A DNA stretch of 36,750 nucleotides from Candidatus Endomicrobium procryptotermitis (GTDB lineage: Bacteria > Elusimicrobiota > Endomicrobiia > Endomicrobiales > Endomicrobiaceae), in the NCBI GenBank assembly GCA_031279415.1, contig JAITIP010000006.1, positions 1 through 36,750 on the forward strand, read 5' to 3'. The position numbers and the translations under genes are program-made. Each line of letters opens with the position of its first letter. The stretch's first letter is position 1. The notes below the pieces were generated by a model. The model did not search any database, was not told the DNA's origin, and saw nothing but the letters and a program-made list of their open reading frames with translations. Shown in pieces: positions 8,841 to 9,243 of the stretch.

Positions 8841-9243
8841 TGGTGGAGGTGGCGGGAGTCGAACCCGCGTCCGAAAATGCTTTTGTACGACCGCTACAGG
8901 CTTAGCCCGGAAAGTTTATCTCGTTTATAATGCCATCTCCGGACGGGATTACATTATAAACCAGCGCCGTTTTGGTTTCATTTCAGACTGACGGCACAAG
9001 CCGACTGAAACTAACCTGCTCTTGTCGTTTTGTCCTAATAGCAGGTGTCAAAGGCAAAACGAAGCCGCATTAAGCAGCTATAGGCATGAACCCAAAACCC
9101 ATCATTGGCATAGGATTTGTGTTCTGCAATGGAACGATATTTTTATCGTTGTTTATTGTTCGGTCGATTTTTACGGAGCCATCGACCAACTCCGGCCTGC
9201 TGTCTGTACTTCTGACCATTCCCGTCGAAACCTATACACCCCC
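8841..9243 (-). ncRNA. ssrA: Transfer-messenger RNA (tmRNA)
   Basis: A one-piece tmRNA of about 403 nt. The RNA 5' end GGGGGTG (from 9243) pairs with CACCTCC near the 3' end, followed by A and an encoded CCA (8841-8843). The T-arm GGGTTCGACTCCC and the 5' GGTTTCGACGGG motif are diagnostic. Pseudoknot 1 is visible: CGGAG pairs with CTCCG, and TTGGTCGAT with ATCGACCGA. The tag frame ends GCT GCT TAA. Its start, AAC, is preceded by TAAAC, which parallels the TAGTC before the E. coli resume codon. That gives a 26-codon tag starting N-D-K-N-I-V and ending G-F-M-P-I-A-A. The RNA is excellently supported; the tag start is inferred. It rescues stalled ribosomes and marks products for proteolysis. It lies between tadA and the DUF2157 gene. 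Confidence 0.95.

Follow-up and report, generated by a model that had tools for sequence, protein, structure and literature searches.

Known tmRNAs and long proteolysis tags

tmRNA releases stalled ribosomes and marks incomplete proteins for degradation. The long tags known from the tmRNAs of mollicutes (Mycoplasma, Mesoplasma) are read by Lon, and their length is combined with a segment of the VP...FML type. Within mollicutes, a long tag that ends in AFA goes with the absence of ClpXP (PMC3985003). Lon has a preference for hydrophobic motifs (PMC11986505). For E. coli, the base at position -4 relative to the resume codon (A86) was shown to set the reading frame (PMC2481249), and AUAG or AUAA is favoured upstream of the resume codon (PMC4236655). 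The mRNA-like regions covered by a survey from 2005 have a length of 48-126 nt, and their resume codons specify Ala, Gly, Asp, Arg, Ser and Glu; Asn is not listed (PMC1168896). According to a tmRNA database paper from 2025, which does not mention Elusimicrobiota, the commonest tag length is 10 and the extreme short length is 2 (PMC11915505). In the literature searched, no paper was found that links Endomicrobium to its tmRNA, the sole match being concerned with a Tenericutes genome. Endomicrobiaceae sequences may already be contained, unremarked, in the tmRNA database.

The tmRNA gene of Candidatus Endomicrobium procryptotermitis

The window, which is the whole stretch of DNA that was analysed, comprises 36,750 nucleotides of contig JAITIP010000006.1. 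The original prediction, made from the letters of the sequence, placed a tmRNA at 8841-9243, and these coordinates proved to be exact. A covariance-model search returned a whole-length RF00023 match at 9243..8841 on the minus strand (model positions 1-374 of 374, E 1.6e-68). Its 172 bits compare with a gathering score of 47, which places the gene in this family, and it is the sole match above the cut-off in the genome of 2.0 Mb. The features of the gene are listed in Table 1.

With standard one-piece tmRNAs (RF00023), the gene shares the full-length model match, the acceptor stem, the T arm, pseudoknot 1, the frame-setting hexamer, a tag frame ending in Ala-Ala and a stop codon in the helix 5 region. 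The acceptor stem has 7 bp (GGGGGTG and CACCTCC, with one G-T pair) and occurs together with the T arm and CCA, as required for a tRNA-like end. The gene differs from the standard by its Asn resume codon, by a tag of 26 codons compared with a commonest length of 10 (PMC11915505), and by the lack of any report from ARAGORN. The partner protein SmpB is encoded in the genome (PF01668, 180 bits) and has a normal length and tail. As the best explanation, to which we attribute as a whole a probability of roughly 0.7, the gene would be a working, standard one-piece tmRNA that encodes a long tag. The gene, its frame and conservation, and the presence of SmpB, ClpXP, Lon and FtsH are established; as further parts of this explanation, we infer tagging itself, ClpXP as the main reader and a role for the middle segment of the tag.

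According to a reading of the ORF list, the neighbours on the same strand are a TadA-like deaminase upstream (9268-9735) and a multi-pass membrane protein downstream (7591-8778).

Table 1. Features of the ssrA locus. Coordinates refer to the window.
Feature	Coordinates	Strand	Description
ssrA gene	8841..9243	-	one-piece tmRNA, 403 nt, 3' CCA encoded; RF00023 full model
3' part of tRNA-like domain	8841..8888	-	T arm, acceptor strand and CCA; Rfam alignment
Tag reading frame and UAA stop	9070..9150	-	NDKNIVPLQNTNPMPMMGFGFMPIAA, 26 codons; frame kept in 60 family genes
Hairpin (helix m)	9133..9150	-	AACGATA-AAAA-TATCGTT, over the resume codon; conserved, with compensatory changes
Resume codon AAC (Asn)	9148..9150	-	homologous codons: GCA/GCC (relatives), GCA (reduced relative L157)
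Frame-setting hexamer ATAAAC	9151..9156	-	directly 5' of the resume codon; its A at -4 corresponds to E. coli A86
Pseudoknot 1	9160..9189	-	outer stem TTGGTCGAT/ATCGACCGA enclosing the GGAG/CTCC partner; Rfam alignment; kept across the family
5' acceptor strand	9237-9243	-	pairs with the 3' acceptor strand

A long tag frame conserved in Endomicrobiaceae

The tag frame of the window closes with GCT GCT TAA, the TAA ending at 9070. A frame of about 26 codons, anchored by these three codons, had been predicted, as had a tag rich in Met, Pro and Gly. The frame is found in the sequence and is conserved among the aligned genes of relatives; the phylum named in the prediction, Elusimicrobiota, is correct as well. 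With 4 Met, 4 Pro, 4 Asn and 2 Gly, the tag is indeed rich in Met and Pro; the attribute Gly-rich is weak for 2 Gly in 26 residues.

The same tmRNA search was carried out in 248 Elusimicrobiota genomes and resulted in about 110 complete genes. The family Endomicrobiaceae (f1), whose members come from termite guts and rumens, includes among others Endomicrobium, Endomicrobiellum and Ruminimicrobiellum. All 60 readable genes from this family keep the frame; their tags have 14-50 residues (median 23) and end in Ala-Ala in 54 cases. For the 57 distinct tag genes of the family, the number of codons to the first stop was used as frame statistic (plain openness of frame 0, 57/57 versus 4 and 5, is partly true by definition). 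Frame 0 runs for a median of 23 codons to its first stop, and never for fewer than 14; the corresponding medians for the two other frames are 13 and 2 codons. An Ala-Ala end closes frame 0 in 51 of the 57 genes and neither of the other two frames in any. Because the first-stop distance and the Ala-Ala end set frame 0 apart, its length is not due to chance. Judged from these genes, the long tag is common to the whole Endomicrobiaceae lineage and not restricted to the window.

Outside the order, tags mostly have 8-12 residues and resume with Ala or Gly. Examples are GCA AAC after ATAAGT (tag ANTYAYAA), GCC after ATAACT, and the tag ANTQLAWATA. The short Elusimicrobiota tags (ANNNLALAA, ANTYAYAA, ANTQLAWATA) thus differ from that of the window in length and, mostly, in the resume codon, whereas the position of this codon, the hairpin over it and the phylum are shared.

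An AAC resume codon following TAAAC had also been predicted and had been called unusual for being neither an Ala nor a Gly codon. The junction TAAAC-AAC is present, its position is supported by homology, and the absence of Asn from the 2005 survey (PMC1168896) agrees with its being unusual. The base at -4 is an A in 60/60 family genes, and the tetramer before the resume codon is ATAA in 50/60 (AGAA and ACAA also occur). The resume codon itself is AAC in 44 of the 60 genes, GAC in 11, AAT in 2, and GAT, GGC and GCA in 1 each, so that 58 of them resume with Asn or Asp. Translation might resume one codon earlier (AAC 9153-9151, resulting in NNDK...) or further downstream, with a tag of 27 or fewer residues. 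The codon upstream of AAC 9150 is also open in frame 0 in most family members. However, ATAA and the A at -4 fit AAC 9150 only, given the homology with ATAAGT-GCA and ATAACT-GCC from relatives and with ATAAAC-GCA from L157, and with a start further downstream, the distance to pseudoknot 1 would no longer be constant. Resumption at another codon is therefore considered very improbable, and a shift by one codon up- or downstream is ruled out by the homology with relatives. Two outcomes that had been named beforehand as speaking against the prediction, relatives with a shorter tag in a different frame and a downstream resume codon, were looked for, and neither was found.

The hairpin on the first tag codons had likewise been listed as an unusual feature. 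It is present, but it represents a conserved helix that is also found in relatives with ordinary tags, which rules it out as a peculiarity of the window gene. A helix at the same place was predicted for E. coli and named helix m (PMC1168896). The arms of the hairpin co-vary (AACGAT/ATCGTT, AACAACA/TGTTGTT, CAACATTA/TAATGTTG), and in short-tag relatives they are GCCAA/TTGGC or GCTAA/TTAGC. The stems have a mean score of 11.4. After shuffling of the tag codons the mean was 9.4 +/- 0.43, and a value as high as 11.4 was not reached in any of 200 shuffles.

ARAGORN, a gene finder in common use, overlooks the majority of the tmRNAs of this one family and assigns a wrong tag to most of those that it detects. 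When genes were run with artificial flanks, the program detected 21 of the 60 genes of the family, the tag being wrong in most, and recovered 10/10 genes in a class sample and 38/40 in a phylum sample.

Support for a protein-level constraint on the added codons

Among four genes from the genus of the window, the variable columns number 3, 3 and 9 at codon positions 1, 2 and 3. Nine non-overlapping pairs, which are short and partly related, show 29 third-position changes when 19.6 are expected from placing the same changes at random (P 0.005), and 19 synonymous codons when 12.5 are expected under the same null (P 0.026). This supports, but does not prove, a protein-level constraint on the added middle segment, the synonymous signal being modest.

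Alternatively, the extra codons might serve as neutral padding that fills the space from the resume codon to helix 5, so that the two ends alone matter. Consistent with padding, tag length (14-50 residues) and middle sequence vary widely within Endomicrobiellum, and much of the tag is replaceable in E. coli (PMC2481249, PMC4236655). The middle (VP..., P.MGFG) is, however, recognisable across several genera. A length of about 20 persists when the remainder of the molecule becomes smaller: two tmRNAs of 270-275 nt (L156, L158), which come from very reduced symbiont genomes, still encode tags of 21 residues. Together with the synonymous and third-position bias, this makes neutral padding an unlikely explanation.

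Proteases and the reading of the tag

For a constrained tag that is read mainly by ClpXP, we propose the following steps. At the stalled ribosome, a complex of Ala-tmRNA and SmpB would add Ala. Guided by the ATAAAC element with its A at -4, SmpB would set the frame, and translation would resume at AAC. The stalled protein would gain (A)NDKNIVPLQNTNPMPMMGFGFMPIAA and would be released at UAA. The hairpin that covers the resume codon would account for part of the constraint on the first six codons. The C-terminal ...MPIAA would most likely serve as a ClpXP degron. The middle, rich in Pro, Met and Phe, would be a second, protein-level element, which probably makes it easier for one of the AAA+ proteases ClpX, Lon or FtsH to engage the tail.

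In the genome of the window, clpP, clpX and lon adjoin one another, and FtsH is also present. No PF04386 match was found in this genome, so that the SspB adaptor expected for an SspB-delivered tag was not detected.

The original prediction drew a parallel to the long tags of mollicutes. It holds for length and make-up: the tag has 26 residues (mollicute tags have at least 20), the middle is hydrophobic and Lon is present. It does not hold for the setting, since mollicutes are devoid of ClpXP (PMC3985003) whereas ClpXP is present here, and the tag ends in PIAA, thus with IAA rather than AFA. Because ClpXP is present, the mollicute explanation fails; with ClpXP, Lon, SmpB and FtsH all encoded, loss of ClpXP is ruled out as the cause of the long tag. 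Long tags have so far been explained by such a loss, whereas here an order with long tags keeps ClpXP.

Across the order, ClpX and ClpP are each found above the cut-off in 69 of 84 genomes. Most genomes without them are incomplete assemblies that also miss the adjoining lon. Three genomes have lost ClpXP. In E. proavitum (G023) and G048, lon directly follows tig, which is the site of clpP and clpX elsewhere, and G130 retains lon without clpP and clpX. In addition, clpX of G090 is broken by stop codons while its clpP is intact. The tag of E. proavitum is NNDNFVNVGNSGFGFAAMAA, that of G048 has 50 residues and ends in PLFA, and that of G130 ends in LQSVV. G048 accounts for the single LFA end among the 60 family tags. 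The AA end is absent from 2/3 genomes without ClpXP, compared with 2/47 genomes outside the classes lost, broken and unresolved (Fisher P 0.014, the genomes being related); E. proavitum, without ClpXP, still has a tag ending in MAA. Because two of the three ClpXP-less tags have lost Ala-Ala, the PIAA end is read as a ClpXP degron, which is what the association suggests on the basis of three losses among non-independent genomes. These few later losses within the order amount to a natural experiment on the role of each part of the tag.

Alternatively, the tag might act chiefly as a degron for Lon, as the mollicute tags do, with Lon reading the hydrophobic Pro/Met/Phe segment and ClpXP playing a minor role. 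The mollicute tag is likewise long and has a segment of the VP...FML type. Almost every genome of the order encodes Lon. This also holds for the three genomes without ClpXP, where tags of 20-50 residues persist, and the preference of Lon for hydrophobic motifs (PMC11986505) would fit. However, ClpXP is kept almost everywhere and the AA end alongside it, and the AFA tag of mollicutes is tied to the absence of ClpXP (PMC3985003), unlike here. We thus regard Lon as an improbable main reader and prefer ClpXP in this role.

Origin, extreme tags and reduced relatives

The neighbour of Endomicrobiaceae in the ClpX tree is a group made up of the remaining families of the order. Within this group, long-tag families (f2, f4 and f5) and short-tag families (f3 and f6) occur together. 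A single gain, with one long-tag clade on this tree, is weakly disfavoured (AU P 0.04). The long tag may have arisen either once at the base of the order, followed by shortening, or by several gains.

Tags of 43-47 residues occur in the Endomicrobiellum group (G090, G108, G112, G183). They contain a hydrophobic stretch (mean Kyte-Doolittle >2.1 over 15 residues), which is often followed by a basic stretch, e.g. IPILGTLLLGFFLWIEKKFKG. G108 and G112 have an intact ClpX. The hydrophobic stretch could be either a membrane signal or a result of drift in small genomes. We consider it quite doubtful that these tags of reduced Endomicrobiellum symbionts send rescued proteins to the membrane, e.g. to FtsH, as a combined localisation signal and degron.

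The tags of the Elusimicrobiota families f13, f16 and f21 (e.g. L105, L113) end in WA[NHT]A, not LAA. G093 (92% complete), which has no ClpX match, has a tag of this class.

No tmRNA was seen in some nearly complete genomes of the family, G011, G044 and G046 among them. In symbiont assemblies of 0.4-0.5 Mb (G158, G150, G177), the tmRNAs (L156, L157, L158) have 270-307 nt and the pseudoknot domain is seemingly lost in part. L157 has reverted to a GCA resume codon and has a tag of 14 residues. The tmRNA gene of G054 (L237, L239, L240) lies in pieces at contig ends, and its 5' part is present a second time as a partial copy; a mobile element within the gene would be expected to result in this pattern. 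In a relative from the order (G035, L153:1501-1963), the loop of pseudoknot 1 carries an insert of ~115 bases with inverted-repeat ends (ATTCCTGGGAACCAGTATTG ... CAATACTGGTTCCCAGGAT), and the tag, ANENLALAA, is intact.
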